In this document: piece after piece, positions 17,409 through 61,497 of the stretch
How positions within the stretch are numbered: the first letter of the stretch is position 1
How the letters are laid out: the number at the start of each line of letters is the position of its first letter
Assembly: GCA_964036195.1 (NCBI GenBank)
Contig: OZ038453.1
Span: forward strand, 8,261,469 to 8,325,468
DNA: 64,000 nt
Direction: 5' to 3'
From: Sphaerolaimus hirsutus
Taxonomy: Eukaryota; Nematoda; Chromadorea; Monhysterida; Sphaerolaimidae
The notes under the pieces: generated by a model
Seen by the model: only the letters and a program-made list of their open reading frames with translations
Told to the model about the DNA's origin: nothing
Databases searched by the model: none
Position numbers and translations under genes: made by a program

Positions 17409-17889
17409 TCCCTACACACACTAATTGACAACGCATGAAATGTCAACTGGGTCCGATCCCAATTCAAAGCTCGTCGACGAGACAACGACCGACGTGCGAA
17501 TGCAAAAGTGTCGAATAATGTTGCAAATGAAGCTTTAGTGTTGAAAACAATATAGCGGTATGTGCAATGTACAAGGCCGGTAAGAAGGGGAAAATGTCTG
17601 TGCAATGATGAGTATTGTTACCGGCCAGCAAGCTTTGAATTGGGATGGGAACCAGGGGGCAGTCCCAGACCCTGTACTTTAAATAATCTGTAAAGTGTCA
17701 AATGTCACGCAAAGTGTCAAAAGTAATGGAAAATGCCTTGCAAAATGGCAACCGAGTTGCCATTTTGCGGGACATTGTCCATGACTTTTGACACTTTGCA
17801 TTACATTGACACTCTACAGGGCATTTTACAGGGTCTGGGACTGGCACCAGTTGACATTTCGTGTCCTTGTCAACTAGTGTGTAGGGCTA
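17409..17889. repeat. CACACTAGTTGACA MITE with nested introner
   Basis: Ends CCCTACACACACTAATTGAC and GTCAACTAGTGTGTAGGG. The introner-family element 17656-17847 is inserted in its right half. Confidence 0.65.
17656..17847. mobile_element. Introner-family element, TSD CAG (reverse orientation)
   Basis: GGGGCAGTCCCAGACCCTG on the left and CTGGGACTGGCAC on the right, flanked by CAG on both sides (17653-17655, 17848-17850). The body is an imperfect hairpin centred on ACCGAGTTGCC. The GGGGC end is on the left, the opposite of the copies found in exons. Confidence 0.8.
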
Positions 17890-21740: not shown

Positions 21741-21979
21741 GGGGCACTCCCAGACCCTGTAAAAAGCCCTGTAAAATGTAAAATGTCATGCAAAGTATCA
21801 AAAGTCATGGAAAATGCCCTGCACAATGGCAACCGAGTTGCCATTTAGCAGGGCATTTTCCATGACTTTTGACACTTCGCATGACATTTGACATTTTGCA
21901 GGGCATTTTCCATGACTTTTGACACTTTGCATGACATTTGACATTTTACAGGGCATTTTACAGGGTCTGGGACTGGCAC
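21741..21979. mobile_element. Introner-family element (reverse orientation)
   Basis: GGGGCACTCCCAGACCCTG on the left, GGGTCTGGGACTGGCAC on the right. The hairpin body has an internally duplicated arm (ATTTTCCATGACTTTTGACACTT occurs twice). The flanking triplets TTG and CGG do not match. Confidence 0.75.
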
Positions 21980-23244: not shown

Positions 23245-24262
23245 AATTTTCAATTGAGGCGTCTAGTTCTAAAAGTCGACAAGTCCACAAAATGCGATTT
23301 TGAGTAAATCGCATTTTTAATTTCATTTCCAATTCCAGGTCCGAGGTGCGTGTCCAATGGGGCTCTCTCATGCTCAACATTAAGTTTCAAATGTTAACAA
23401 TAAAGTGTTAAATTTTCAGCATCTGCTCTCAACGTATAATGGAAAAATTAGGTGTCTATAAAATTCTACTCGGACCGAACAAAACTGTTTTGGGGAGGAA
23501 AATGGACTTGTCGACTTCTTGCACTCGAGAACATTTTTGTTCCCGTCCAATTTGCGCCTGCCTTCTGGGAAATTTATGGACTTGTCGACTTTTAGGCCGG
23601 AATTAGAGCTCAGCGTCGATTCGACGTGAAATGATGACGTGAAATGTCGTCGTGAAATTAATTAATCAATTAATTACATGACACTATTGCAAGCAGCAGT
23701 CTGACGTGAAATGTCAAGTTGTTCCCTGACACTGTGACGTGAAATGATGATGACGTGAAATGATAAAAATTGAATTTTTCAATTCGCTCTAGTTGTGGCT
23801 GATAACACTCAGTATTGGACACGATTAAGGTATTGATTCATATATTATCCTTAGAAAATTGTAGACCCGTAGCATGATCCACACTCGTGTAATTAATTTC
23901 ATGACGACATTTCACGTCATCATTTCACGTCGAATCGACGCTGAGCTCTAATTCCCGCTTTAGAAATTGGTGTCCATGACGGACTTATCACATTTCTTGC
24001 ATTTTTTACCATAAAAAAGCCGCGGAAGGTGGCCTTGTCGACTTTATGCCCAAAACTAAGTGGACTTGTCGACTTCTTGCCCAATTTTTTTGCATTTTTC
24101 CCAAAAATGTCAAATTGGGCACTTTGCCATATGGGCATATGAGGTCAAAAAATTTATGGAAAATGATGAAAAATGTGCGGAAGTAGCCCCAGATGACGTT
24201 TTCGGGCCTAACTCGAAATTTTCATATTTTGGACTTGTCGACTTTTAGAATTGGACGCCTCA
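23245..24262. repeat. GTCGACAAGTCC foldback element, copy 1
   Basis: Ends GAGGCGTCTAGTTCTAAAAG and CTTTTAGAATTGGACGCCTC. Many TGGACTTGTCGACTTTT units are spread through the body. A second copy lies at 55656-56263. A palindrome (23603-23955) is nested inside. Confidence 0.7.
23603..23955. repeat. GACGTGAAAT palindrome, nested copy
   Basis: Arms GGAATTAGAGCTCAGCGTCG and CGACGCTGAGCTCTAATTCC. Same family as the long palindrome at 43088-43612, with part of one arm missing. Confidence 0.75.
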
Positions 24263-26349: not shown

Positions 26350-26541
26350 GTGCCACTCCCAGACCCTGCAAAATGTCCTGATAAAATGTCAAATGTCATG
26401 TAAAGTGTAAAAAGTCATGCAAAATCCCCTGGAAAATGACAAACGCTAGTTTGCCATGTTGCAGGCATTTTCCATGACTTTTAACACTTTGCATGACATT
26501 TGACATTTTATAGGGCGTTTTACAGGGTCCGGGACTGCCGC
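26350..26541. mobile_element. Introner-family element, TSD CTG (forward)
   Basis: GTGCCACTCCCAGACCCTG on the left, GGGACTGCCGC on the right, CTG on both sides (26347-26349, 26542-26544). 192 bp imperfect hairpin. Intergenic. Confidence 0.8.
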
Positions 26542-28328: not shown

Positions 28329-28505
28329 GGGGCAGTCCCAGACCCTGTAAAATGTCAAATGTCATGCAAAGTGTCAAAAGTCATGGAAAATGCCCTGCAA
28401 AATGGCAACCGAGTTGCCATTTTGCAGGGCATTTTCCATGACTTTTGACACTTTGCATGACATTTGACATTTTACAGGGCATTTTACAGGGGCTGGGATT
28501 GACAC
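28329..28505. mobile_element. Introner-family element, TSD CTG (reverse)
   Basis: GGGGCAGTCCCAGACCCTG to GGGCTGGGATTGACAC, with CTG on both sides (28326-28328, 28506-28508). A very regular hairpin, a good reference copy of the family. Confidence 0.82.
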
Positions 28506-40889: not shown

Positions 40890-41620
40890 GTGCCAGTCCC
40901 AGACCCTGTAAAAAGCCCTGTAAAATGTCAAATGCCATGCAAAGTGTCAAAAGTCATGGAAATGCCCTGCACCATGGCAACCGAGTTGTAACCGAGTTTT
41001 TGCAGGGCATTTTCCCCTCGAATAAGCCCCCCCCTCGAATAAGCCCCCATCAAAATTTGATGGTGGAAAAATCGGGCGTGCACTGATACGCACACGTGCC
41101 CGATACGCACATATGCCCGTTTTTTTTCACTTGACACTTTTTCAAGTGATTTTCAGATATGAGTAAAGCGGGAATTTGAGCTCAGCGTCGATTCGACGTG
41201 AAATGATGACGTGAAAAATTAATTACACGAGTGTGGATCATGCTACGGGTCTACAATTTTCTAAGGATACTATATGAATCAATACCTTAATCGTGTCCAA
41301 TACTGAGTGTTATCAGCCACAACTAGAGCGAATTGAAAAATTCAATTTTTATCATTTCACGTCATCATCATTTCACGTCACACTGTCAGGGAACAACTTG
41401 ACATTTCACGTCAGACTGCTGCTTGCAATAGTCAAGTGATTTTCAGATATGAGTGAAGTGAAAAAAGTTCACTAATGTCATTGCGCAACTTTTTTTCACT
41501 TTACTCATATCTTAAAATCACTTGAAAAAGTGTCAAGTGAAAAAAACGGGCATATGTGCGTATCGGGCCTGCCCCGAAAAATCAACCCCCTTGAGGTATT
41601 TTGAGGAGATACAGTACTTA
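40890..41620. repeat. Nested block: broken introner, MITEs and palindrome half
   Basis: Begins GTGCCAGTCCCAGACCCTG (introner left end). It is broken near 40998 by a TACCGTATTT-family element holding a CGATACGCACATATGCCCG hairpin (about 41060-41575). That hairpin itself contains a copy of the GACGTGAAAT palindrome (41168-41432). Confidence 0.55.
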
Positions 41621-42513: not shown

Positions 42514-43087
42514 AATAGTCTCTACTGAAAACACTGTGTGCATTAAATTTCAGAACGGTTTTTTAACGCGAAAAAATTGGGCGATAAAATCGAAGGCATG
42601 AAAAAAGCTGATAAAATGACGTAGAAGTTTACACGTAAATTTACTATTTTGTGTACAGGTGACGTAGCGGTTTTGTCACATAAAACGATCTTATCTGGAA
42701 ATGTCACCAATGATTAGTAATTGATTTCATTAAGTACCCTTTGTTTTTTGGTGGACCGAACCTCAAAAAATAACGATAATGTACAATGTCACCGATATTT
42801 TCTAGACGACCTTTCATTCGATATTGCCATAAGTGTCACCGATATTTTAAGTGAATAGTAAATAAGGATTACGGTAACGAAACGCTTAGATTTCAAATCT
42901 TTCAATTAAGTGTTTACACATTTTAAGACTTTAAATTGCAAACTTTCCAATGTCGGATATAATGATTGATAGTTTCTCTCATTGATTTTTTCAGCAGTGA
43001 CGTAGAGCAAATTCGTCAATACATAGGGTGGAGTCTTTATATTCTGGTGAAATAATTTAACACGTGGTCCCGTAGCCGTAAAGCGGG

Positions 43088-43612
43088 AATTAGAGCTCAG
43101 CGTCGATTCGACGTGAAATGATGACGTGAAATGTCGTCGTGAAATTAATTACACAAGTGTGGATCATGCTACGGGTCTACAATTTTCTAAGGATAATATA
43201 TGAATCAATACCTTAATCGTGTCCAATACTGAGTGTTATCAGCCACAACTAGAGCGAATTGAAAAATTCTATTTTTATCATTTCACGTCAGCATCATTTC
43301 ACGTCACAGTGTCAGGGAACAACTTGACATTTCACGTCAGACTTTTGCAATGTCTGACGTGAAATGTCAAGTTGTTCCCTGACACAGTGACGTGAAATGA
43401 TGATGACGTGAAATGATAACAATTGAATTTTTCAATTCGCTCTAGTTGTGGCTGATAACACTCAGTATTGGACACGATTAAGGTATTGATTCATATATTA
43501 TCCTTAGAAAATCGTAGACCCGTAGCATGATCCACACTTGTGTAATTAATTTCACGACGACATTTCACGTCATCATTTCACGTCGAATCGACGCTGAGCT
43601 CTAATTCCGGCC
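43088..43612. repeat. Long near-perfect palindrome (GACGTGAAATGATGACG family)
   Basis: Two arms of about 255 bp, starting GGAATTAGAGCTCAGCGTCG and ending with the complement, meet at about 43345 with a loop of a few bases. Related copies lie at 23603-23955 and 41168-41432. Confidence 0.88.
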
Positions 43613-43851: not shown

Positions 43852-46800
43852 ATGTTGCTCCTATCAATAATATCCACATTATTCATCACATCGGCAACAG
43901 CACAGGTAAATACAAACAGAAAATCAAAATTTACCCAAAATTCCAAAATTTCCCAAAAATTTCAAAAAATTCCCACACACAGCTACAAGCATTCAGCCCG
44001 TTCGAATTCGAATGCGCCGCAGGGGAGGGGATCGTTTCCGGGTTCACTGTGTTCGTGAGGAAATCTGGTGCCACTCCCAGACCCTGTAAAAAGCCCTGTA
44101 AAATGTTAAATGTCATGCTAAGTGGCAAAAGTCATGGAAAATGCCATTTTGCAAATAGAGTAAATGAAACCGAGTTGCCATTGTCCAGAGCAGGGCATAT
44201 TCCATGACTTTTGGCACTTTGCATGACATTTTACATTTTACAGGGCTTCTTACAGGGTCTGGGACTGCCCCCTGATGGGGACACGAGGGATTTGTTGGTG
44301 AAGCCGATATGCAAGCCTTTGGGGCCGGAAGATAGCCCATTGGTGAGCGCAGTGCGACGGATTTTTGAGAAAACTTATTGTAAATACTGTATTTGTTCAA
44401 AAAATTCCCCTGCTTAAATAGTTCCCTCGCCTGAATAATCCCCACTCTTGATTCATTCCCCCCCCTCTAAAAATTCCAGCGTATGGTATATGATCAATTT
44501 GTTATGTCCATTCTGAACAAAAATGGCAGGTTATTTTTGTTGATAAAGCATATTTTGTGGAAAGAGTTGATAGAGATATGTTTGAAAAGTTTGACCAAAC
44601 AGTAATTGCTCCCCTTGAATAATTCCCCCCTTGGAAAGCCCCCTCGGAAAAGTCTGATGAAAAACACGTCCCCAAATTCCAAGAAAAACGGTAATTGGCA
44701 ATAAAGAACAAAACAAACACCAAAAATTCATTAACCCCCCTCCCCCTCAAATAACCCCCCCAGGAATCATCATGCAGCGAGGGGGAGGAGTCATTCGAGC
44801 TAGCCGACAGCATGGGGGCCTTGGCCTCGTCCAGTGCGGACTACAACGCCGCTTGTCCCAGCGGCAGTTATATTGGTGGGATTACCAGCGAGTTTGAAGG
44901 AAGCCCTGGGGAACCTGATGCTAAGAGATTGTTGGTTGCGTTGGGATGGGCTTATGTACGCTAGTTGACAGTGAAAATTTGTGTTAACTGTATGTCAACT
45001 GGATAAGGCAAAAAAAAACTGTTTAAAGAATCACACTTAAAAGGAACAATGAAAATTAAGCGTCACGATATAAAATTAACTAGGTATTTTACATATGTCC
45101 ATAACATAGGAAAGTTGAAATCACATAATTTGACAAAATTTGGTTGAATTGAATTGACACATAAATATTTTGATGTCAACTAGTGTGTGTGTGGCCCCAT
45201 TTGAACTTTGATGGGTTCACTGAGTAAAGTGGGTGGTGGTCTCAAATTTGACAGACTTTGGTGGCTCGCACACTAGCTGACATGTCAAAATATTTGGGCT
45301 GTTGTCAACTGCTTGTGTCAACTAAAAGCAAATGTGTGGCATGTGGGCACTCTGTTTGCAACATGGCAGTTTAGTACAAATGCTACATCAGATGTTTGTG
45401 CTCACTGGGTTTTGGCAAGTCACATTCATTATACTGTAAAACAATGTTGTCTACTCAATTGCAAATTGTTACACTGTTCATGCATCACACTGCAATCATT
45501 TAGTTGACAACAGTGCTTAACAATGTTTGCAAACTAATACAGCTGTGCAATTTCTGTCTGTGCAGACTGATTCAGTTGAAATTTTGAATACATTCAAATA
45601 AATTGTGAATTCATTTTGCACATGTTATTCTGAAAAACATGCACAAGTGTAACATTTAGTTGACACAACTGTGTGATAGATGTAGACAGACGCCCTTGAA
45701 TAACACCCCCTTGAATAACTCCCCTCCAAAACATCTGATGAAATAATGACTGCCCTGGGGTCTTATTCAAGGATATACGGTAGATTTTAACACGCAGGGT
45801 AAAATTCATCTGCTGCGAGCCCAGCAATGCTGCAGTCGATGAGGAAATCGGCTGCCACGTTCAAAGTGCCAAAAATCCATTCAAATCGGGCAGGTCATTC
45901 TTGGCTCTTGGCAATGACAATTCAAATAATAATGACAAGAATTGCCCCAAGGATGCTTTGACAGGAATTGAGATAACGTTAGTTTTTTGTTTTTTATATT
46001 TTTATGCACTTGTTCTTTACTCTGCGGACTGCAAAGTATGCACCCAAAATTATGACTTATGCACGCACTTTCACAAAAAAAAGAAAAGTATACCTAGTAA
46101 AAGAAAAAAAGCGGAGTCGAGACTCGAGTACAACCGAGATATGTTTCGTGCCCGGAATCATTTTTTATATATTTTTTGTGCAACAATTCTTATTTTATCA
46201 ACAATGACGTCATAATGGAGCATTCCCTTCAAAAAAATGCACAGCGTACGGTCCGCCAAGTATCTCAATTCATTAATCACACATAAAATAAACTCGACGG
46301 ACATCATGGAAGTCAATGCTCTACGGGATTTTCGTACAACTGCGTATATTCGTAGTTGGCACTCGTCCAAGTTACCGTTTGAGAGAATGTTACCCAGTAT
46401 GAAAGATGCAGGATTTCCGTCTGCGTCACCAAAAATGGCTGCGGAATGCGATTAAGCGAACGCAATTGGTCGCTAATGGCGGCGCACACACGAGTTGACA
46501 CACATGTTGATTTAATTGGATACCGCGGTCATTTTCGTTGACGAGAGCGGAAATCTAGCGTCTTTTACCTCATTCGTATTCAACGCAAAGGTAACTTGGA
46601 CGTACTGGGAAGCAGGGTTGGCAAAATCTCAGAAAAAAATAAAAATAAAATAAAAATAAAATGGAATATTCAAGAATAAAATAAAATAAAATAAAATGGA
46701 AAATATAAGAATAAAAATAAAAATTGTATAAAAATTCGAATTTTTGTAAAATTTTTGTAAAATTGTATAAAAATTCGTATTTTTGTAAAATTGTATAAAA

Positions 46801-49800: not shown

Positions 49801-52800
49801 TTGGATACACATCACACTTTACAGGGTCTTTTACATGACACATGACATTTTACAGGGTCTTTTATACGACACATGATATTTTATAGGGTCTTTTACATGA
49901 CACATGACATTTTACAGTGTCTTTTACACTTTTCTTAGACTTTTACAGGGTCTGGCACTGCCACTGAGTACGTGCATTTCAGTTGAGCAAATTTCATGAA
50001 TAGGATAAGGAATGTGCAAATTCAACACCCAACTTTTCAAAATAACTAATTTTTTAAAATATTTTTGGAAATGCATAAATATGGGCGATTCCATTCATTG
50101 TGAACAGGCCAAAACTATTATTGTAAAGTTTCACAATAAAAAAGTGTCCAAATGCCCCAAAAATTCGCAGAATGGCGCTGGCCTGCGTCAAATATTCCAA
50201 CATGGAAGTGTCAGAATCTGAATCTGAATCGACCACGGAAACCAAAGAAGTGACCATCACCGAGTCGGAGACAATTGTCATTGAAAGCACCAGCGAAACC
50301 ACTACCATCACTGTGGTCGAAATCACTGTTGTGTTAGTTATAACTACCATATATGTATCTTTGAATAAAATCCCCTTCAATAACTCCCTCGCTTGAATAC
50401 TTGAATTTTTTGTCAACTTTTTTTTACCATATTGGAGGTTGCCATTCTATTTTTTCAACAATTTTTCTCACACATTTCTCATCTAAAAAATAGCTTTGTT
50501 TTTGATGAAGCTTGAGCAATATTTGAATATCAGAGCATCAATTTCAGATTTAACACCTATTTGATTGTTTTGCATGTTATAACCATCCATTTTTGATTCA
50601 TTTTTGATCCTAATGGCCGTTCAATTTGAGGCTGCCGTTCTATTGTTGTCGTGAGTGCAAAAATGTGCCAAAACCTGCCATTCTATTGGAGGTATGCCGT
50701 TCTATTAGAAGAAATACGGTTACTCCCTCCCTGCTGGCCGAGTGAGGAGAAAATAACCCCCCTTGAATAACTCCACCACATGAATACTTCCCCCTCTATG
50801 ATAGGTGGCAAAGAAGTTTGGGTCAAGTTAAAGAGTCCGATTTACATACGAGTTTTCCAAATTTTTCGAAATTTCTGTAGAAAAAAACTGCTGGGTGTAG
50901 GGCTTCCCTGAACAACTTATCACAGGGAGGAAACAATGACCGTAACCTACACGGAAACAACTACAACATACACAGAAGAAACGCAATTCACGGAAACCAC
51001 TGTTATCACTGAGGAAGGTTTGTGTTTTTATTGCATACAGGAAAGTGTTGAGCGAGAGAAACATGCCCCATTTGCAATGTATTTAGGGTCATGTGCGTAT
51101 TCTAACCACTTTTTTGGCCATTAGCCAATCCCACACATACATGTTGGTGATTCTTCTTAGCATTGGACAAAATTTCCAAGAGACTAGGTAATATTTATAA
51201 AAAAATTCAGAAAAAATAAAATATATATACTTTTTCCAGCAGTTTCTGAAGATAAATTTTACTTCCTCTTTGAGAGATGCTTTAACTCGGTATTTATATC
51301 AGTAAATAAAAAATATCTACTTAAACATTTAATTCTATTTTTCAGGCTTTTCTTTGAAAGATTTAATTTTCTTTTCTTTTTGAGAGATTTTATGAGATTA
51401 TATTTAATCTTACTAATCTTATAATTTTTTATATTATCATTAAGTTAAAATAACCCAAACACCCATATTCCAAGTCGTTTTCAGAATACATCATCTAAAC
51501 ATTCAAACTTTTTTACAGAGGAAACATCAAACAAATGCAAAAGCAAGAGCTCTGGCAGTGGTGATGGATCAGGGGAAAACAAAAATGAAAAATGGTGAGT
51601 TTTTTCCTGTTATGTGGGAATTAAGTATCGGTTGCCATTTTGCAGGGCATTTTCCATAACTTTTGACACTTTGCTTGACATTTGACATTTTACAGGGCTT
51701 TTTACAGGGTCTGGGAGTGCCCCCTGGGCAAATGGAATATATGGCTTGTCAGTAGACAAGACAGTATAGCAGCATAATTTCGCTTTTGCAGTAAATGTTA
51801 TTGTGCAGTAAACTTTAAGAATTGTAGTCAACATAGTAGTACAGTATGGTAAATTCTGACACCCTCTACTAGTTTCATTGAATTTAATCATTGAACATAC
51901 AATAAATCCTCAAATAAGCCCCCCTAGAATAACCCCCCCCCTGTTGTCAGCATGGGGAAAAATAACCCCCCTTGGATAACCCCCCCCCCTCAAAAAAGTC
52001 CACCCTCAAAGAATCCTGGTGAAAAACAACTCCCCCGTTGACTTCTTCTAGTATTTACAGTAATCAACACTAAAATACCCCACACACAGGTACGGCGTGG
52101 GTCAGTGCAAAGATGGCATAGAAAAATGCGAGCGCCACTGCGACAAGTCAGCAAAGGAAGAGGGGAAGGAGGTAAAGGAGGCTGCCTGTGAGGTTCCCCC
52201 GGGCCACCCTGGAGCGCAGAAGGAAAAGTGTGTCTGCAGATGGGAGGGTGGAGGTTGGTGGGGTAGGGTCATTTGCTCACCCTCCTTGCCCTTGTCTCAT
52301 TTAGGGATGTTGAGATGTCTGTCTGTATTACCATATTTCTCCGAGTATAAGCCCCCCCCCCCAAAAAAAAACCCCATAGTGTTTGCAATGCAACAAAAAT
52401 TTTTTTAGCAAAGTCCCTTACACAGGAACTGAATTTTTTTGCTGGTGCCTGTTGCATAAAGATGAAACAATTTAAAATGGTGTATTGCGGCGCGCGTCTG
52501 GTCGAGTGTCTTTGCAAAGTGGATAGTGTTTGAAAAAGCACTAAAATTTGTATAGTGCCCCAACTAGGGCTCAAAACTCAATTTTTTTCAAACTCAAGTT
52601 TGAGTCACAGCTGACAATTTTTTCCGGTTGAGCTGGCGAGTCAAGCCGGGGCAAGTCAGTTAAAATCGAGTCGAGTCTTAGCAAAAATCTCGAGTTCGAG
52701 CCCCACCCGCAGCCCTTTTACTCGTTGATAATAATTCACAGATGACGAGGGTGATGGTGATGAGGATGAAGAGGAGTGTGAAGAATCTGAAGAAGATGAT

Positions 52801-54842
52801 GATGATTCTGATGATGATGATGATGATGACTCTGATGATGATTCTGATGATGATGATTCTGGTGGATCAGGTGGTTCCGGTGGATCAGGTGCCAGTCCCA
52901 GACTCTGCAAATGACCCTGTAAAGTGTGAAAAACCCTGTAAAATGTCATCTGTCATGTAAAATATCCTGTGAAGTGTCATGTTTATCAAAAAACTTTTTG
53001 TATCCAAATGTAATGTTTTTGTATCGAGTTCTCATGTTAGAACATAATATTAGGATACAAAAACATAAGATTTGGATACAATACAATATGGTTTGGCACA
53101 TGACACTCTACAGAGTATTTTACATGACATTTGACACCTGACAGGGTCTTTTACACTTTTGAGGGTCTTTTACAGGGTCTGGGATCTGGTGGATCTGGTG
53201 GTTCCGGTGGATCTGGCGGTTCTGGTGGATCTGGTGGATCCGGTGGATCTGGTGGCTCAGAAGAATCAGGTTCATTTACTCTCTGCTAATTTTGATTAAT
53301 CAGCCATGATTTGTCCCATCACTCAACTTCAACAAACCAAAACAAACCAGCAGAAGACTGCATCTGCATCTGCGGCACCCAATGCTCCGCATCTGGCGGT
53401 GAAGAGGAAGAGGAAGGTTCAGGTGGCACTCACAGACTCTGTAAAAAGCCATGTAAAATGTCAAATGTCATGCGGTGTCAAAAATCATGCCTTACAAAAT
53501 AGCAAACGTACGTTTGCAATTTTGCAGGGAATTTTTCATGACTTTTGACACTTTGCATGACATTTGACATTTTACATGGCTTTTTACAGGGTCTGGGAGT
53601 GGCATCAGACGAGCAAAGGGCTCTGCTTTCGAGGGCAAAGAGGGCCACGAGGACAGTCACAAAGACAACGACTGTGAAAAAGACAACTGTGACCAAGAAA
53701 ACTACGACTACTACTAGTGTTGGTTCTGGTTGCTTCTGTTAGAAGTTTTTACAGTAAAGCGGCGTTTACACGGTTTCGTGTGCCGACAAAAAAATCAAGT
53801 GATAAAGTTCCATAATTCCGGAATGAAGTTCCATATCTGCAAGAAAAAACATTGAAGGATACTCACTAGTTAAGTTTACACACATGCCAATTTGCAGATA
53901 ATTTGCGCTGTCGTTCAAGACTTATGACCATTTGAAAACTAATTTCAGTTGTCGGTTCGGTTTCAAAACGAAAACTGAACCGACAACTGAAATTTGTTTT
54001 CACGTCTTGAACGACATGCACGAATTATCTGCGAATTGGCATGCGTGTACACTCAACTAGTGAGTATGTATACCTGCTTTGTTTTGCAGATATGAAACTT
54101 TATTCTGGAATTATGAAACTTTTTCTCTTCATTTTTTGTCGGCACAGAACACAGTGTAAACGCCGCTTAATGTTTCCTGCATTATTGCGTGCATGAGTTG
54201 TCATTGTCACAATGCCATTGCAAGCTTAAAAAATGGGCATGCAAAATATAAAATGAATACTTTAACCCTACATCCCACCTGCAGAATGAGTACATACACC
54301 CTACTTAAACCCTACATCCATCCTCACAGGCAGTGACAATCACGGAGGAAGAGCGCAATGGACAAACAGTTTGGATACTCACAGCCAATGAGGAGGGCAT
54401 GAAGAGATGTCCAGAGGATCAGTGCAACTGCGATTGCGCCTGCCAGGTGCCAGTCCCAGACCCTGTGAAATTCCCTGTAAAATGTCAAATCTCATGCAAA
54501 GTGTCAAAATACATGGAAAATGCTCGGTAAAATGGCAAACGTATGTTTGCCACTTTACCAGACATTTCACATCACTATTGACACTTTGCCTGACATTTGA
54601 CATTTTACAGGGCATTTTACAGGGCTTAGTACTGCCCCCAGGAGTCTGAAGAGGACGATTCAGGGGAGGATTCGGGTTCGGGAGAAAAATCGGAAAAGTC
54701 CGGCTCTGGCTCCAAGTCGAAGAAGTCCAAGAGTAAATCTGATAAATCTAAGAAATCCAAGAAATCAAAGAAATCCGATAAATCCAAGAAATCTAAGAAG
54801 TCCAAGAAATCCAAATCGAACAATGGGAGAGGCAAAGGCTAA
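43852..54842 (+). CDS. Secreted Thr/Glu-rich, Cys-containing acidic protein (unrecognised), about 18 exons
   Basis: Family not recognised. In-phase exons: 43852-43905, 43983-44067, 44275-44342, 44764-44955, 45784-45977, 47952-48063, 48524-48688, 49251-49393, 50171-50332, 50926-51017, 51519-51594, 52090-52247, 52742-52888, 53189-53269, 53354-53422, 53609-53718, 54330-54446, 54642-54842 (2226 nt, 741 aa). Exon 1 is a signal peptide (MLLLSIISTLFITSATAQ). Then come Cys-poor segments, T-x-T / E-rich strands such as TVEVTETTVTEE, a six-Cys module (448-500), a D/S/E-rich run, Gly-Gly-Ser repeats, CxC clusters (CICIC, CNCDCAC) and a Ser-Lys tail. The composition suggests an extracellular matrix, mineral or secretion protein (inference). 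Four introns are introner elements. The starts of exons 5 and 17 are the weakest calls; reading through exon 16 would end at TAG 53740-53742. Confidence 0.72.
44068..44274 (+). mobile_element. Introner-family element inside coding sequence, TSD CTG
   Basis: GTGCCACTCCCAGACCCTG follows CTG (44065-44067) and the right end GGGACTGCCCC is followed by CTG (44272-44274). Removing 44068-44274 joins AAATCTG to ATGGGGAC in frame (K-S-D-G-D). Both strands of the element have stops in frame. A canonical alternative is donor GTGAGG at 44055 with acceptor CAG at 44253-44255, also in phase. Confidence 0.85.
44388..44756. repeat. TACCGTATTT-family MITE in the third intron
   Basis: Left arm ACTGTATTTGTTCAAAAAATTCCCC pairs with CCAAGAAAAACGGTA near 44693. 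A short C-rich fragment follows up to the acceptor at 44763. Confidence 0.55.
44957..45200. repeat. CTAGTTGACA MITE directly at a donor site
   Basis: CGCTAGTTGACAGTGAAAAT begins at the exon donor (44956) and pairs with TGATGTCAACTAGTGTGTGTG near 45190. The exon end at 44955 is therefore abutted by a MITE. Confidence 0.6.
45685..45783. repeat. Short TACCGTATTT-family element ending at an acceptor
   Basis: C-rich left arm and right end TTATTCAAGGATATACGGTAG. The TAG at 45781-45783 is the only in-phase acceptor I can find for the next exon, so the MITE end appears to supply the splice site. Confidence 0.5.
46613..47678. mobile_element. Non-autonomous hAT (CAGGGTTGGCAAAATC family), copy 2, TSD CTGGGAAG
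   Basis: Ends CAGGGTTGGCAAAATCTCAG and AACCAACCCTG with a perfect 8-bp duplication CTGGGAAG (46605-46612, 47679-47686). Sequence follows copy 1 (24578-26211) closely but lacks its nested 570-bp insert. Confidence 0.92.
49540..49966. mobile_element. Diverged introner-family element in an intron
   Basis: Repeats of AAAGACCCTGTAAAATGTCATG on the left and GGGTCTTTTACATGACACATGACA on the right, ending ACAGGGTCTGGCACTGCCA|CTG. The right arm carries three or four tandem copies. Located between the exons at 49251 and 50171. Confidence 0.6.
50340..50725. repeat. Mixed MITE block (TACCGTATTT / CCGTTCTATT families)
   Basis: A C-rich fragment (50348-50400) precedes a TTACCATATTGGAGG ... GGTATGCCGTTCTATTAGAAGAAATACGGTTA element. 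It fills the intron before the exon at 50926. Confidence 0.55.
51628..51727. mobile_element. Right half of an introner-family element
   Basis: TTGCCATTTTGCAGGGCATTTTCC through GGGTCTGGGAGTGCCCC followed by CTG; the left half is missing. Lies in the intron after the exon ending 51594. Confidence 0.6.
51898..52062. repeat. TACCGTATTT-family MITE
   Basis: C-rich left part (CAAATAAGCCCCCCTAGAATAACC) and a right end TTCTTCTAGTATTTACAGTA, just upstream of the exon at 52090. Confidence 0.5.
52889..53188 (+). mobile_element. Introner-family element in Gly-Ser coding sequence
   Basis: GTGCCAGTCCCAGACTCTGC follows CAG (52886-52888). The right end GGTCTGGGAT is followed by CTG (53186-53188). Removing 300 nt joins GGATCAG to GTGGATCTGG and keeps the Gly-Gly-Ser repeat in frame. 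The last intron bases would be TG. A downstream canonical acceptor, CAG at 53258-53260, is also in phase but would delete the repeats. Confidence 0.8.
53423..53608 (+). mobile_element. Introner-family element forming a GT-AG intron, TSD CAG
   Basis: CAG|GTGGCACTCACAGACTC at the left and GGGAGTGGCAT|CAG at the right (CAG at 53420-53422 and 53606-53608). Splicing joins EEEEGS to DEQRAL in frame. GT comes from the element and AG from the duplicated target triplet. The body is a hairpin with CAAACGTACGTTTG at its centre. Confidence 0.88.
53757..54170. repeat. AAGCGGCGTTTACAC foldback element
   Basis: Ends TAAAGCGGCGTTTACACGG and GTGTAAACGCCGCTTAA, with inner inverted arms ATGCCAATTTGCAGATAATT / AATTATCTGCGAATTGGCAT. 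About 415 bp, in the intron before the exon at 54330. Confidence 0.75.
54447..54641 (+). mobile_element. Introner-family element forming a GT-AG intron, TSD CAG
   Basis: CAG|GTGCCAGTCCCAGACCCTG at the left and GTACTGCCCC|CAG at the right (CAG at 54444-54446 and 54639-54641). Splicing joins CNCDCACQ to ESEEDD at phase 0. Translation through the element hits a stop, so it must be spliced for the Ser-Lys tail to be made. 195 bp imperfect hairpin. Confidence 0.9.
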
Positions 54843-55655
54843 TTAGAGATGAACATTCCCAGAGAGAGAGAATAACACAAATTTAGTTTAATTGTACACC
54901 ACAGTTTTTGATGATGTGTTATCCTGTGTGGTGCTGAATTGACCTTTTTGTAAATGGTATTCCAGTGTCTTTTGTACTGTTTTATTGTGTCATCTTCATA
55001 TAAAATATTTTAATGTGATAAATGCTCCATACAATTCAACTTCTGACTATCATAAATATATAAGATATGTGATACTGAGCAGTGTCTAAATTTCTTCAAC
55101 TTAGGTGTTTGCTACTTCTGATTACTGGTGGTTATTCACACAACACGATTCCATGTTAAAATGTCACTCAATTCCAGATTAGGAGTGCCGTATTTCCTTG
55201 AAGTACCCCCCTCTTCCAAATACTCCGTCAAAATGACCACCATGAATCGATAGACCCCCCTCGAAATACCCCTCCAAAATGAGTGTAAACAGAACGTGAA
55301 TGACAAAAGCTGCGGTTTGTTATAGAGGCAATGTAGATACCTACCACGCTGGGTCGGGTCGGTTCGGGTCTTGTCGGGTCGGGTCGGGTTCCAACCCTAC
55401 ACACACTTCATTTCGGTAAACTCAGGTAAACGGTGAACATTCAAAGCAGACTTATGAGATTTAAATTTTTTTAAAATTTTGTGTGTTGGCGGTGGGCACA
55501 GCGATTCACCAACGCGCTGCGCTGACACATAGAAAGAACGTGGTTGACAAGTCACTGTCAAATCATTGTAAACAAGTTTTTCGACATCGTTTCGATGTGT
55601 TATTCTGTGCTTTTTTTCCTTTGTCGGTTTCTGCGCGTCAAAATTTCAGCATGCA
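54843..55655. other. Spacer between the secreted-protein gene and its copy
   Basis: 3' flank of the gene with no canonical AATAAA close by. It holds a TACCGTATTT-family fragment (55188-55280) and a short GGGTCGGGTTCCAACCCTA piece (55350-55400) matching hAT ends at 57456-57740. No gene seen. Confidence 0.5.
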
Positions 55656-56263
55656 TTTGGGGCGTCTAATTCAAAAAGTCGACAAGTCCACAAAATGCGA
55701 TTTTGAGTAAATCGCATTTTAAGCTTCATCTCCAATTCCAGGTCCGTGGTGCGTCTCCAATGGCGCTCTCTCATGCTCAACATTAAGTTCCAAATGTTAA
55801 CAATAAAGTGTCAGATTTTCAGCCCCTGTTTTCAACGTATACGTGAAAATTTCAGTCTCCATAAAATTCTACTCGCACAGAACAAAACTGTTTTGGGGAA
55901 GGAAATGGACTTGTCGACTTCATGCACTCGAGAACATTTTTGTTCCCGGGGAAGAAGAGCCTGCCATATGGGAAATTTTTGGACTTGTCGACTTTTAGAA
56001 ATCGGTGTCCATGATGGACTTATCACATTTCTTGCGTTTTTTCCCCATAAAAAAAGGCCGAGGAAGGTGGACTTGTCGACTTTTAGCCCAAAACTAAGTG
56101 GACTTGTCGAATTTGTCACTTTGCCATATGGGCATGTGAGGTCAAAAAATTTACGGAAAATTTTTAAAAATGTGCGGGAGTAGCCCCAGATGACGTTTCC
56201 GGGCCTAACTCAAAATTTTCATATTTTGTACTTGTCGACTTTTAGAATTGGACGCCTCATTTA
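55656..56263. repeat. GTCGACAAGTCC foldback element, copy 2
   Basis: Ends GGGGCGTCTAATTCAAAAAG and CTTTTAGAATTGGACGCCTC. Colinear with 23245-24262 but without that copy's nested palindrome, so this copy shows the uninterrupted form. Confidence 0.75.
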
Positions 56264-56649
56264 CATGCTGTGTGACGTTGTCGTCCTCTTGTTTCCACGC
56301 TGAACATTGTGTTTTCACGTTGTTTTCAGGGGCCAAAGCCCTGTGTGCATGTAAAGCGGGCGCCAATTTTCTTCTCAATTCACTTGGCATTTGCCACTTC
56401 ACTTCTCACTTCTTAATTCGCGGAACTGGCACCAGGTCTGCGTGGCATGATTCATGATATGAAACACGCTGTGGCGCCTTTTGTGCTGACAATGTTTTGA
56501 TGGCGCCACAGTGCTTTCGTGGGCGGCAGCGACCCCTTACCCAAATGATACTAAACGGATATTCAAGTTGGCTATTTTGCATTAAAAAATTTTTATCAAC
56601 AATTTTAAATACAAGGTGACAAAAACCATTTCCATAAGAGAAATAAAAA

Positions 56650-59600
56650 ATGACTGTTACATACACGGAAACAATTACAACATACATGGGAGTAACGCAG
56701 TTCACAGAACCTACTGTTACTGAGGAGGGTGAGAAAGGTTTGTGCATTCTTCAATGTAGAAATCTTAAGTGGAAGTTAAAGAGTAGAGTATAAAGTAGAG
56801 TGAAGGATGAAGAGGAAAATTTTGCTATTTACTCTTAACTTGCGGGACTAGTCCCTGGGGGCACTCCCAGACCCTGTAAAAAAACCCTGTAAAATGTCAA
56901 ATGTCATGCAAAGTGTCAAAAATCATAGAAAATGCCCTGCAAAAGAGCATGCCATTTTTCAGGGCATTTTCCATGACTTGACACATTGCATGACATTTAA
57001 CATCTTACAGGGCTTTTTACATGGTCTGGGATTGGCACCTGGTGGTTCTGATGGCTCTAATCTAATGAATAAGATGGTTCTGATGTGTGAACTTGATTGA
57101 AACTTGTAAATATGCATTAAAAAACTTTGAGTAATTCACAGATGAGGAGGAGGATGGTGATTTGAATGAAGAGGAGTGTGAAAATTCTGAAAATGATGAT
57201 GATGGATCTGATGGATCTGGCGATTCTGATGGATCAGGTGTAGTGATGGAAAAGTGATATGGCACTAGTGCTTGGTGACAGCACCTGGTGCTAGCACCAA
57301 AAGAAAAAGCATCATGGCACTTTTGGCACTTGGCACTATTTCACTGTGGTGACATTGGATTGGCACTTGGCGCCACACCCATGAAAAGACCCATGGCGCT
57401 TTTGGTGCCTGGCATTTTTTTCCATGGTACCAGGGACAAAATGCCTGGTGCTGGCTAGGGTTGGGAACCCGACCCGACCCGACCCGACACGACCCGACCC
57501 GACACGACCCGACCCGACCCGACCCAACCTGAACCCGATACCCGCACACTTTTTGGAACAGAAACCCAATACCCGAACCCGACTTTGCTACCCGAACTCG
57601 AACCCGATACCCGACCTTAATACCCAAACATGAACCTGATACCGCAAAATTGTTGGAACTGATACCCGATACCCGACTCGAAATTTTTAGGACCCCATAT
57701 CCAATACCCGAACCCGAATTTCTTGAAATTCCCAACCCTAGTGCTGGCGATTTGGCTCTGGTGCCATCGGCACTTGGCACTGGGGTTCATAAAAGCGCCA
57801 TGGTGCTTTTGGCACTTGGCACCACGTTCTGGCACTTTTTCCATCACTAATCAGGTGGATCAGATGGTTCTGTTGTGTGAATTTGATTAGAACATGTATA
57901 CCTACATGAAAATAACTTCACAATAATTCACAGATGAGAAGGAGGAGGGTGATGAGGATGAAGAGGAGTGTGAAGAATCTGAAGATGATGATGAGGACGA
58001 GGAGGATTCTGAAGGATCTGAAGGATCTGCATCCAGTGGCTCAGAAAAATCAGGTTTGCTTACATTCAGCTAATTGGAATTGAAAAGTAATGATGATCTC
58101 AGTCATTTACAGTGTTATTTATGTGGCCACACAAGCTAGTTTTCATGGTTTCAATTTGAAAACTTGTTCAAAGACTTAATGCTGATTGATGCTTCCACTA
58201 TCCCCTAACTGACCACCAGTATTAGGATGCAAATATTACTTTACAGAAATGATAAGCCATGAACTACTGTTCAAGGAGGTTGACAAGATTTCGGTCAAGT
58301 TTTCAAATTGGAACCATGAAAACTAGCTTGTGTGGCACTAATATGTTCTGGATCATGAAGTGAACAAACCAATCAACCAAAATCAACTCAACATTCAGCC
58401 ATACTGCATTTTCAAACTTACTTTATACTCACACATTCAAAGGGGACTGCACCTGTGAATGCTCTGCATTGAGTAGTGATGTGGCAGCTGAAAAGGAAAA
58501 ACAGTGCAATTGTGATTGTGCTTGCCACGAATTAGCACAGTTGTTGAAGTGTATTTACGTTTACTTGAAAGATGTGTACACTCGAGTACTGGGCATGGTT
58601 GGTTTTAGTAAAATTCTTTTTACTAAAATTGTATTTTATTTTTATTAAAATTGTATTTTATTTTAATTTTATTCATGTTTCATTTTATTTTATTTTATTT
58701 TATTCTGAAATGTCATTAATAAAATAAAATGAAACCATTTTACAAAAATTTTACAAATATTTTACAAAATTTTTACAAAAAACCGGAACCTTGGATGCAA
58801 GGCCATAAACCAATGTGCACACTAGAAGCATGCAGATGAATACAAAAAATTTTATGTAGACTTGTGTCACAGGGTTGCGACAGGTATAATATCTTGAATT
58901 TTGACCCTTACATACAGGGGCCGGATACAGATATGTATCTAATTGCTCCTCCCGAAAAATAGCTAAAAAATTGTTTGTTTGTTTGTTGGGGGGGGGGGGG
59001 GCGGGGGGCTTGAGGGGTTCAATACAAAGGTTTTTTTCAACGTATGGAATGAAGAAAATGGGGAGAAAATCACATAAATTAATGATTTTTAAGGTGAAAA
59101 TATATTAAAAGATGTGAAAATTTTCAATTTTGAGCAAAAATATTTTTCAATCACAACAATAAAAGCAACAAGAAGGCACCAGTTCTGCAAATTGGCAGCT
59201 AGAAGCTTAAGCAACAGGATAGAAAACTTTTTGTAGAATTTTACAGACACTCGAGTTTTTGTAAAATTTTACCAAAATTGTACAAAAATTCAAATTTTTG
59301 TACAATTTTGATAAAATTTTACTAAAATTCAAATTTTAGTAAAATTGTATTTTTATTTTATTAATTTTCCATTTTATTTAATTTTATTTTATTATTCAAT
59401 TTTCCATTTTATTTTTATTTTATTTTTATTTATTTCTGAGATTTTGCCAACCCTGGTACTGGGTAAATATTTACACTTACATTTTTTCGAGAAAAAGTAC
59501 CAGTACTCAATTCTGTGAAAACTTTTTGAAAGTACCTATCTGTACAGAAAACATATTTCACAAAAATCAATGAGGGAGATAAAAAGTGGCTTCACTGCCA

Positions 59601-60040
59601 TATTTATATTGACAGAGGCTCTCGGGTTGCATTTTAAAACCTAAGTATGGACAATTTTGATTTTTCATTAGCCATTGCACCAATAAATGCAATGGCAACA
59701 TTCCAAAAACTGCACACTGTTCACTAATTTGTCGTTTCACATTTTATTTGTCGTTATGCTGTAAGCCGCGCCTTACATTGACATTGACATTACTTTTTAA
59801 AGTTAGGTACTGTTTTAATGACTCAATGAATCAAAGAAGGAAGACACAGAAGAGGATTTAGGTTCAGGAGATTCCATATCTAAGTCAAAGTCAAAGTCGA
59901 AAAAATCCAAGGATAAATCCAAGAAATCTAAGAAATCCAAGGATAAATCTCCAAAATCTAAGGAATCCAAGAAATCCAAGAAGTCAAAGGAATCCAAAAA
60001 ATCGAAGAGCAAATCAACCAGTGGAAAAAGCAAGGGGTAG
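56650..60040 (+). CDS. Partial tandem copy of the secreted-protein gene
   Basis: Exons matching the 3' half of the upstream gene: 56650-56728 (MTVTYTETITTY, as in 50935-51017), 57142-57237 and 57934-58053 (both like the acidic exon 52742), 58443-58528 or slightly longer (DCTCECSA then QCNCDCACH, fusing two upstream exons), and the Ser-Lys tail 59837-60040. Phases agree (1/2) from the first to the fourth exon. The junction into the tail is not clear: no in-phase canonical pair was found, and a hAT (58594-59455) plus another repeat lie between. No signal peptide exon is visible; an in-frame TAA lies just before the ATG. An AATAAA follows the stop. It could be a truncated paralogue, alternative 3' exons of the upstream gene, or a decaying pseudogene. 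Confidence 0.45.
56858..57038. mobile_element. Introner-family element, TSD CTG (reverse)
   Basis: GGGGCACTCCCAGACCCTG to TGGTCTGGGATTGGCAC, CTG on both sides (56855-56857, 57039-57041). It lies between the first two exons of the tandem copy and starts with GG, so it offers no donor on this strand. Confidence 0.8.
57241..57849. mobile_element. hAT element on a splice donor, TSD ATCAGGTG
   Basis: Ends TAGTGATGGAAAAGTG and CACTTTTTCCATCACTA with a perfect 8-bp duplication ATCAGGTG (57233-57240, 57850-57857). The left duplication spans the donor CAG|GTG of the acidic exon ending 57237. GGCACTTGGCACC-type motifs fill the body, and another hAT is nested inside. Confidence 0.92.
57456..57740. mobile_element. 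Nested hAT element, TSD GTGCTGGC
   Basis: Ends TAGGGTTGGGAACCCGACCC and AATTCCCAACCCTA with a perfect 8-bp duplication GTGCTGGC (57448-57455, 57741-57748). Contains (CCCGA)n arrays. Related to the 83-bp element at 21654 and the fragment near 55350. Confidence 0.92.
58120..58343. repeat. CACAAGCTAGTTTTCATGG MITE, copy 2
   Basis: Ends GTGGCCACACAAGCTAGTTT and AACTAGCTTGTGTGGCAC. Second copy of the element at 39480-39705; located in an intron of the tandem copy. Confidence 0.8.
58594..59455. mobile_element. Non-autonomous hAT (CAGGGTTGGC family), copy 3, TSD GTACTGGG
   Basis: Reverse orientation: starts CATGGTTGGTTTTAGTAAAA and ends AGATTTTGCCAACCCTG. Perfect 8-bp duplication GTACTGGG (58586-58593, 59456-59463). 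It interrupts an older CGTATTTACG repeat that follows the CNCDCAC exon of the tandem copy. Confidence 0.9.
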
Positions 60041-61329: not shown

Positions 61330-61497
61330 GGGGCAGTCCCAGACCCTGAAAATTGTCAAATGTCATGCAAAGTGTCAAAAATCATGGAAAATGCCCGGTG
61401 AAATGGCAAACGTACGTTTGCCATCGTACCGGGCATTTACCATGACTTTTGACACTTTGCATGACATTTGACATTTTACAGGGTCTGGGACTGGCAC
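61330..61497. mobile_element. Introner-family element with duplicated flank
   Basis: GGGGCAGTCCCAGACCCTG to GGGTCTGGGACTGGCAC, preceded by CAG and followed by CTG. A stretch of about 30 bases (GGGAATCATTATAAAATTGC and on to AATGCCAG) occurs just before and again just after the element (61299-61329, 61503-61533). Confidence 0.78.

Follow-up and report, generated by a model that had tools for sequence, protein, structure and literature searches.

Our results suggest that a 192-bp foldback element in a 64,000-nucleotide stretch of the Sphaerolaimus hirsutus genome (contig OZ038453.1, C4:8261469-8325468, hereafter the window) is a transposon that is itself an intron. We consider it very probable that this element belongs to a family of non-autonomous DNA transposons, fully palindromic miniature inverted-repeat transposable elements (MITEs), which target CWG (CAG or CTG) and act as introners, and that the focal copy likely refilled an old intron position.

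The focal element lies on the plus strand at 54447-54638 in the GT-first orientation, and its ends read GTGCC at the start and GCCCC at the finish. The foldback arms (54443-54540 and 54545-54642) are 79% complementary and are separated by a loop of 4 nt, and CAG flanks the element on both sides (54444-54446 before, 54639-54641 after). These features bear out the initial annotation, which had described a foldback inserted at CAG, a duplication of CAG and an element beginning with GTGCC. Together, the element and the duplicated CAG form a predicted intron of 195 nt (54447-54641), a multiple of three, whose excision joins two coding exons in frame as CAG/GAG, giving AVTITEEERNGQTVWILTANEEGMKRCPEDQCNCDCACQ/ESEEDDSGEDSGSGEK...RGKG and a stop (the slash marks the junction). 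This join, also claimed in the initial annotation, is present in the sequence: the upstream exon ends in RCPEDQCNCDCACQ and would be spliced to the Ser/Lys-rich exon that starts with ESEEDDSGEDSGSGEK. Without splicing, the upstream reading frame reaches a stop within the element. In support of the proposal that the transposon itself is the intron, the predicted donor comes from the element and the predicted acceptor AG from the target duplication, an arrangement that is among the introner mechanisms given in the parts of PMC9860276 available to us (the other papers cited below were likewise available in part). The features of the focal site, all on the plus strand, are as follows.

54330..54446, plus: upstream coding exon, ending TGCCAG (AVTITEEERNGQTVWILTANEEGMKRCPEDQCNCDCACQ); open frame, acceptor-like CCTCACAG before it, paralogous exon in locus L070.
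54444..54446, plus: target triplet CAG, first copy, on the exon side; CWG duplication is seen genome-wide.
54447..54638, plus: 192-bp foldback element, GT-first, recognised by its foldback and the family alignment.
54447..54448, plus: GT donor dinucleotide from the element end; its T, position 2, is one of two symmetry-breaking positions.
54615..54620, plus: TTTTAC, a candidate branch site by its position, whose A stands 22 nt away from the final base of the predicted intron.
54639..54641, plus: duplicated CAG, source of the AG acceptor.
54642..54842, plus: downstream coding exon, with a Ser/Lys-rich C-terminus and the stop.

The element belongs to a large family, with thousands of copies. Its exact 19-base 3' end, GGTCTGGGASTGCCCCCWG, occurs 2,800 times in the searched assembly (348 Mb, 762 contigs), compared to 0 for a reversed-pattern control, and 28 stretches of the window match the family consensus (3,660 bases in all, fragments included). 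A genome search with the focal element as query gave 2,940 first-look candidates, of which the best 40 were scored; the 80 matches listed are 40 places on both strands, and the focal copy was compared with the other 39 (L009-L047). These best 40 of 2,940 places align to the element nearly end to end, so that, as expected of introners, the similarity of the predicted introns reaches both splice boundaries. Signs of transposition are also present, namely the palindrome and a CWG target site duplication (TSD). Among the 295 full-length copies with exact ends, the 5' and 3' flanking triplets were CAG/CAG in 139, CTG/CTG in 86, CTG/CAG in 43 and CAG/CTG in 27, and they matched in 225/295 (chi-square p = 3e-18). 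The family makes a 3-bp CWG target duplication. The occurrence of CTG next to CAG, the near-perfect palindrome of the family and the second intron candidate listed below go beyond the initial annotation. One could propose that an ordinary intron was instead mobilised through RNA, by reverse splicing, and then spread. The intron-like ends of the copies would suit such an origin, but the 3-bp duplication, the full palindrome and the copies lying outside recognised coding sequence are features of a DNA transposon, and we find the proposal scarcely credible.

Over its 192 bp, the consensus reads as a perfect palindrome save for mirror pairs 2 and 4. In the alignment of the 40 copies (192 consensus columns), pairs 2/191 and 4/189 were complementary in 0/40 copies, while the other 94 of the 96 mirror pairs were complementary in 27 to 40 of the 40 copies (median 95%). 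The asymmetric bases coincide with the T of the GT donor and with the pyrimidine-rich 3' end beside the acceptor. Since the donor and pyrimidine pairs alone break the palindrome, the direction of a copy relative to the gene would decide its ability to be an intron. Note that pair complementarity does not depend on the orientation chosen for each copy, although the query that retrieved them was asymmetric; for this reason, copies with two GGGGC ends were counted genome-wide as a control. Only 7 were present (14 strand-wise matches), compared to 295 asymmetric copies, which were in addition required to have CWG flanks. Another possibility could be that the asymmetry between GTGCC and GGGGC serves the transposase as left and right ends, and that the ability to form an intron is a by-product. 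This has a real if minority chance of being correct: the asymmetry is also present in window copies without a recognised coding context, and copies with two GG ends are few. Against it, the asymmetric bases fall precisely on the donor T and on the pyrimidines by the acceptor, and the copies in coding sequence are oriented to match.

This orientation was measured with a coding score computed in six frames over 90 bases on each side of the empty site, without consulting the element. Among the 40 scored copies, the GT end came first in 22/22 with a score margin of at least 5 (p = 5e-7); when no margin was applied, 32/40 copies had the GTGCC end leading on the strand with the best coding score (p = 1.8e-4). 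A further 21 paired-end matches came from the window and from the flanking sequence retrieved; they include the focal copy, and one copy appears among them twice. Here the orientation of the element matched the coding strand in 15/21, and in 6/7 at margin 5. The coding-frame score is crude and says little about any single copy; for L014, which matches USP on its minus strand, it picked the wrong strand.

Moreover, several copies interrupt conserved domains. For 30/40 copies a single frame, in most cases selected by eye, was compared with Pfam; 28 of these open reading frames (ORFs) crossed the junction, and those of L010 and L018 covered one side of it only (L001, L011, L013, L016, L019, L021, L028, L034, L040 and L044 were outside this comparison). 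A domain spanned the empty-site junction in 8/30 copies, with E 1.6e-4 or better: UCH (L014), 7tm_1 (L020), RRM_1 (L017), FMO-like (L045), Myb (L047), Glyco_transf_92 (L012), Med8 (L037) and Tmemb_cc2 (L042, below the curated cut-off). The GT-first orientation was found in 7/8 of them, the exception being L047. Matches to PDZ and TPR sit beside the junction and not across it, and a PAN match was weak. Aligned with solved proteins, three of the interrupted sequences continue through the junction without a gap: USP over 39 residues (E 3e-4), MED8 over 51 residues (E 5e-8) and RRM over 65 residues (E 1e-16). The presence of these three genes and of a G protein-coupled receptor gene, together with a COX1 that reads with the invertebrate code, agrees with the earlier claim that the host gene is an animal gene. 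The mitochondrial contig is 14,754 bp long; in our own reading of its COX1 (code 5), based on 4.3 kb of that contig, TGA is Trp, and AGR fits Ser and ATA fits Met at conserved positions.

These results also bear on whether the copies are removed from RNA at all. If the exonic copies were unspliced, they would be recent, harmful or heterozygous insertions, or would lie in dead genes. Copies with a 3' CTG, which have no AG at the boundary, would be accommodated in this way; however, the 22/22 GT-first bias and the intact USP, MED8 and RRM domains argue against it, and copies that differ from the consensus by 1.6-9.9% are not brand new. We therefore regard unspliced copies as an improbable explanation. 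Excision from somatic DNA, as for internal eliminated sequences, is more doubtful still, and we think it very improbable. Removal of a TSD-flanked palindrome would restore the frame exactly, also in CTG copies lacking AG, but it gives no reason why GT should come first on the coding strand (22/22) or why CAG should outnumber CTG as the 3' triplet.

Next to the orientation, the acceptor triplet carries a signal. The 3' triplet of the 22 clear coding copies was CAG in 15, CTG in 5 and another triplet in 2, and in both of these latter a CAG is present, shifted by one base (by eye). Genome-wide, CAG/CAG exceeded CTG/CTG (139:86, p = 5e-4). Among copies with mismatched flanks, selection for an AG acceptor would predict an excess of CTG/CAG over CAG/CTG, which insertion preference alone should not yield; the ratio was 43:27 in the raw counts, and 38:16 (p = 0.004) after duplicated rows had been removed by eye. 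Separately, C9:24957538-25756900 contains several near-identical copies that share one mismatched flank pair, CAG/CTG, which resembles a segmental duplication.

The initial annotation had proposed a recent insertion at the focal site, and this is not supported by our data. Of the 40 copies, the focal one differs most from the consensus (9.9%, compared to 1.6-8.9% in the other 39), and a paralog has an ordinary intron. An ancestral ordinary intron at this place in relatives had been named as a result that would speak against the proposal; this applies in part, as an ordinary intron was found in a paralog, offset by one base. L070 (C4:10384230), the best-scoring paralog, has the same exon pair separated by an ordinary 419-bp GT-AG intron, CCAAG/GTAAAT...TTACAG/GATCTGG, which follows the shared CNCDC.CQ motif and is displaced by a single base relative to the focal intron. 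Because the focal copy is the most diverged and the L070 intron lies one base away, we take the focal intron as one that probably refilled or replaced an intron position of greater age, although this is not proven. Alternatively, the focal intron could be a simple new gain in an intron-less exon, with the L070 intron independent or at another site. The exact CAG duplication and the different intron phases (0 at the focal site, 1 in L070) would support this, as would the scarcity of relatives: only L070 and a weak match, L072, were found, and the exon of L072 reads past the focal site. However, L070 has the same two-exon layout with its intron one base off, and a tandem paralog at 58.4-60.0 kb, interrupted in the focal-intron region with no unique splice model, likewise needs an intron there; we thus see a simple gain as rather unlikely. 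In the window, positions 52700-60040 hold a small family of genes in tandem, with C-x-C-x-C motifs and tails rich in Ser and Lys, to which L070 and L072 are related.

Taken together, a mechanism can be proposed. Insertion at CWG would duplicate the three bases and place the GTGCC and GCCCC ends next to them, and insertion into an exon with the GT end first, in a CAG of the sense strand, would create a ready intron. The element would supply the GT donor, a putative branch site in TTTTAC (with its A at -22) and C-rich pyrimidines; the run of C and the duplicated CAG would form the acceptor, and exact removal would leave the protein unchanged. The ACAG that comes right after TTTTAC would lie close to the branch A and within the predicted stem; in the fold predicted for the consensus, 4 bases are unpaired at each end. 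At the focal site, the insertion would have refilled or replaced the older intron position instead of opening a new one. A more ambitious proposal, which we hold tentatively and at somewhat less than an even chance, is that the lineage is under selection to be an intron. In that case the two symmetry-breaking pairs would encode splicing polarity, CWG would provide AG half the time, CTG copies would use a TG acceptor, and the genome would hold thousands of direction-sensitive self-introns that also refill old positions.

Several observations weigh against the family acting as introners in this manner. First, the donor GTGCCA is weak beyond its GT, and stronger-looking GTAAAA and ACAG signals are internal to the element. 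The internal ACAG was rejected as acceptor, since every retained length (the triplet and 16 or 28 element bases, with 0, 6 or 18 more from the GT sites) shifts the frame, as worked out by hand on the consensus. Second, the 40 copies were picked by their similarity to the focal copy and are neither a random nor an even sample of the genome. Both flanks picked the same frame in 10/40 of them, compared to 41/400 random window positions, and no domain crossed the junction in 22/30 of the copies compared with Pfam; a third batch of 10 copies gave nothing significant. L047, in a Myb/SANT domain, lies GG-end first on the coding strand and has no GT at the boundary. Third, the raw mismatch asymmetry is not significant on its own (p = 0.07), and the L070 intron weakens the case for a gain at the focal site. 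Finally, 5/22 clear coding copies end in CTG, with no AG at the boundary, as do 3/8 of the domain-spanning copies: L017 (RRM), L037 (Med8) and L045 (FMO). These three differ from the consensus by 4.2-4.7%, which is typical of the 40 copies, so they do not look newer, and a choice of GT and AG that would restore MED8 exactly was not found by hand. The proposed mechanism does not account for these CTG copies in conserved domains. TG 3' splice sites of U2 introns, described as alternative sites in human genes (PMC2374985), might by analogy allow copies that end in CTG to be spliced. L033, L036 and L038 are further copies in conserved or open coding sequence with a 3' CTG flank, and they too are no less diverged than the copies with CAG.

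Introners have been reported in diverse eukaryotes including copepods, in two animal taxonomic groups only (Gozashti et al. 2022, PMC9860276). Like the family described here, those introners form families of similar introns that reach both splice boundaries and have terminal inverted repeats (TIRs) and TSDs, and some families carry the 5' splice site and co-opt the 3' one; the present family differs in duplicating CWG and in being palindromic over its full length except at the pairs critical for splicing. Introners have been described in the tunicate Oikopleura dioica, and an introner-like element has been put forward for a gene of a bdelloid rotifer (PMC10597677), so that finding introners in an animal is no novelty as such; the consulted parts of that paper describe no CWG duplication or full palindrome for them. 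The introners of the dinoflagellate Amoebophrya (PMC7789003) are also hairpin-forming introns with direct repeats at their boundaries, but they have inverted repeats of 8-20 nt and variable non-canonical splice sites, whereas here the consensus pairs over 92 bp in one family with a GT donor. In a literature search by titles and abstract openings, with subscription papers outside it, neither a full-length palindromic introner nor a CWG introner was found in an animal; the nearest match was the internally symmetrical stwintrons of fungi (PMC8469720). The family thus looks like an animal introner family, of a kind already known, in which the combination of CWG duplication and full palindrome appears to be new.

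With respect to the transposase, the NuwaI group of PHIS transposons, present in animals only, has a 5'-CWG-3' TSD and TIRs that usually begin with GGG (Han et al. 2015, PMC4482050). Our family shares the 5'-CWG-3' TSD and has one end of GGGGC, the other being GTGCC; intron formation is not among the features described in the available parts of PMC4482050. No transposase with these ends was found at the 20 top PF13359 loci fetched, in a search for PF13359 (DDE) only that did not extend to a NuwaI-type Myb/SANT ORF, and for this reason we call the family NuwaI-like and not NuwaI. The abundant PF13359 family was rejected as a partner, having other ends. This DDE_Tnp_4 family (L049-L068 and others) gave 163 matches, many with nearly equal scores, and 17/19 sampled copies are 96.6-99.0% like L060 over ~2.5 kb; most listed stretches have ~4 in-frame TGA and exceed the profile in length, perhaps through an intron. 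The PF00379 cuticle domain gave 0 matches in the host genome, which is no more than a hint against an arthropod host, because the search controls were also empty.

The window contains a second element-intron candidate, whose ends are degraded and whose element orientation was assigned by script to the minus strand, opposite to the focal copy, and further family copies.

53423..53608, plus: second candidate intron, CAG/GTGGC...GGCAT CAG/, 186 nt, joining EEEEEGS/DEQRALL in frame.
17656..17847, minus: family copy, full length.
21741..21979, minus: family copy, longer than the consensus.
26350..26541, plus: family copy, CTG duplication.
28329..28505, minus: family copy, CTG duplication (plus-strand reading).
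44068..44271, plus: family copy, CTG duplication.
56858..57038, minus: family copy, CTG duplication (plus-strand reading).
61330..61497, minus: family copy, flanking triplets mismatched.

A separate, near-perfect foldback at 43083-43611 has arms of 263 nt, 97% complementary, and a loop of 3 nt, and its relatives lie at 23683-23962 and 41216-41432. Another foldback, seen by eye at ~53757-54170 (GCGGCGTTTACAC...GTGTAAACGCCGC), occupies part of the interval that separates the first gene from the focal upstream exon.

The question of how genomes acquire introns is an old one, and reports of introners in animals are rare (two groups in PMC9860276). Transposition of an intron-ready element may spread introns through an animal genome, the host gene surviving each insertion, and here a chromosome-scale animal genome holds copies by the thousand, some of which lie in conserved exons. 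The proposal makes clear predictions: splicing should be decided by the way the element is oriented to the gene, by the base in the middle of the target triplet and by two bases of the element. The CTG copies in the MED8 and RRM genes bear on whether TG acceptors work routinely. Finally, the focal site suggests that introners may also refill intron positions that are already old; in comparative studies, this would look like intron conservation.

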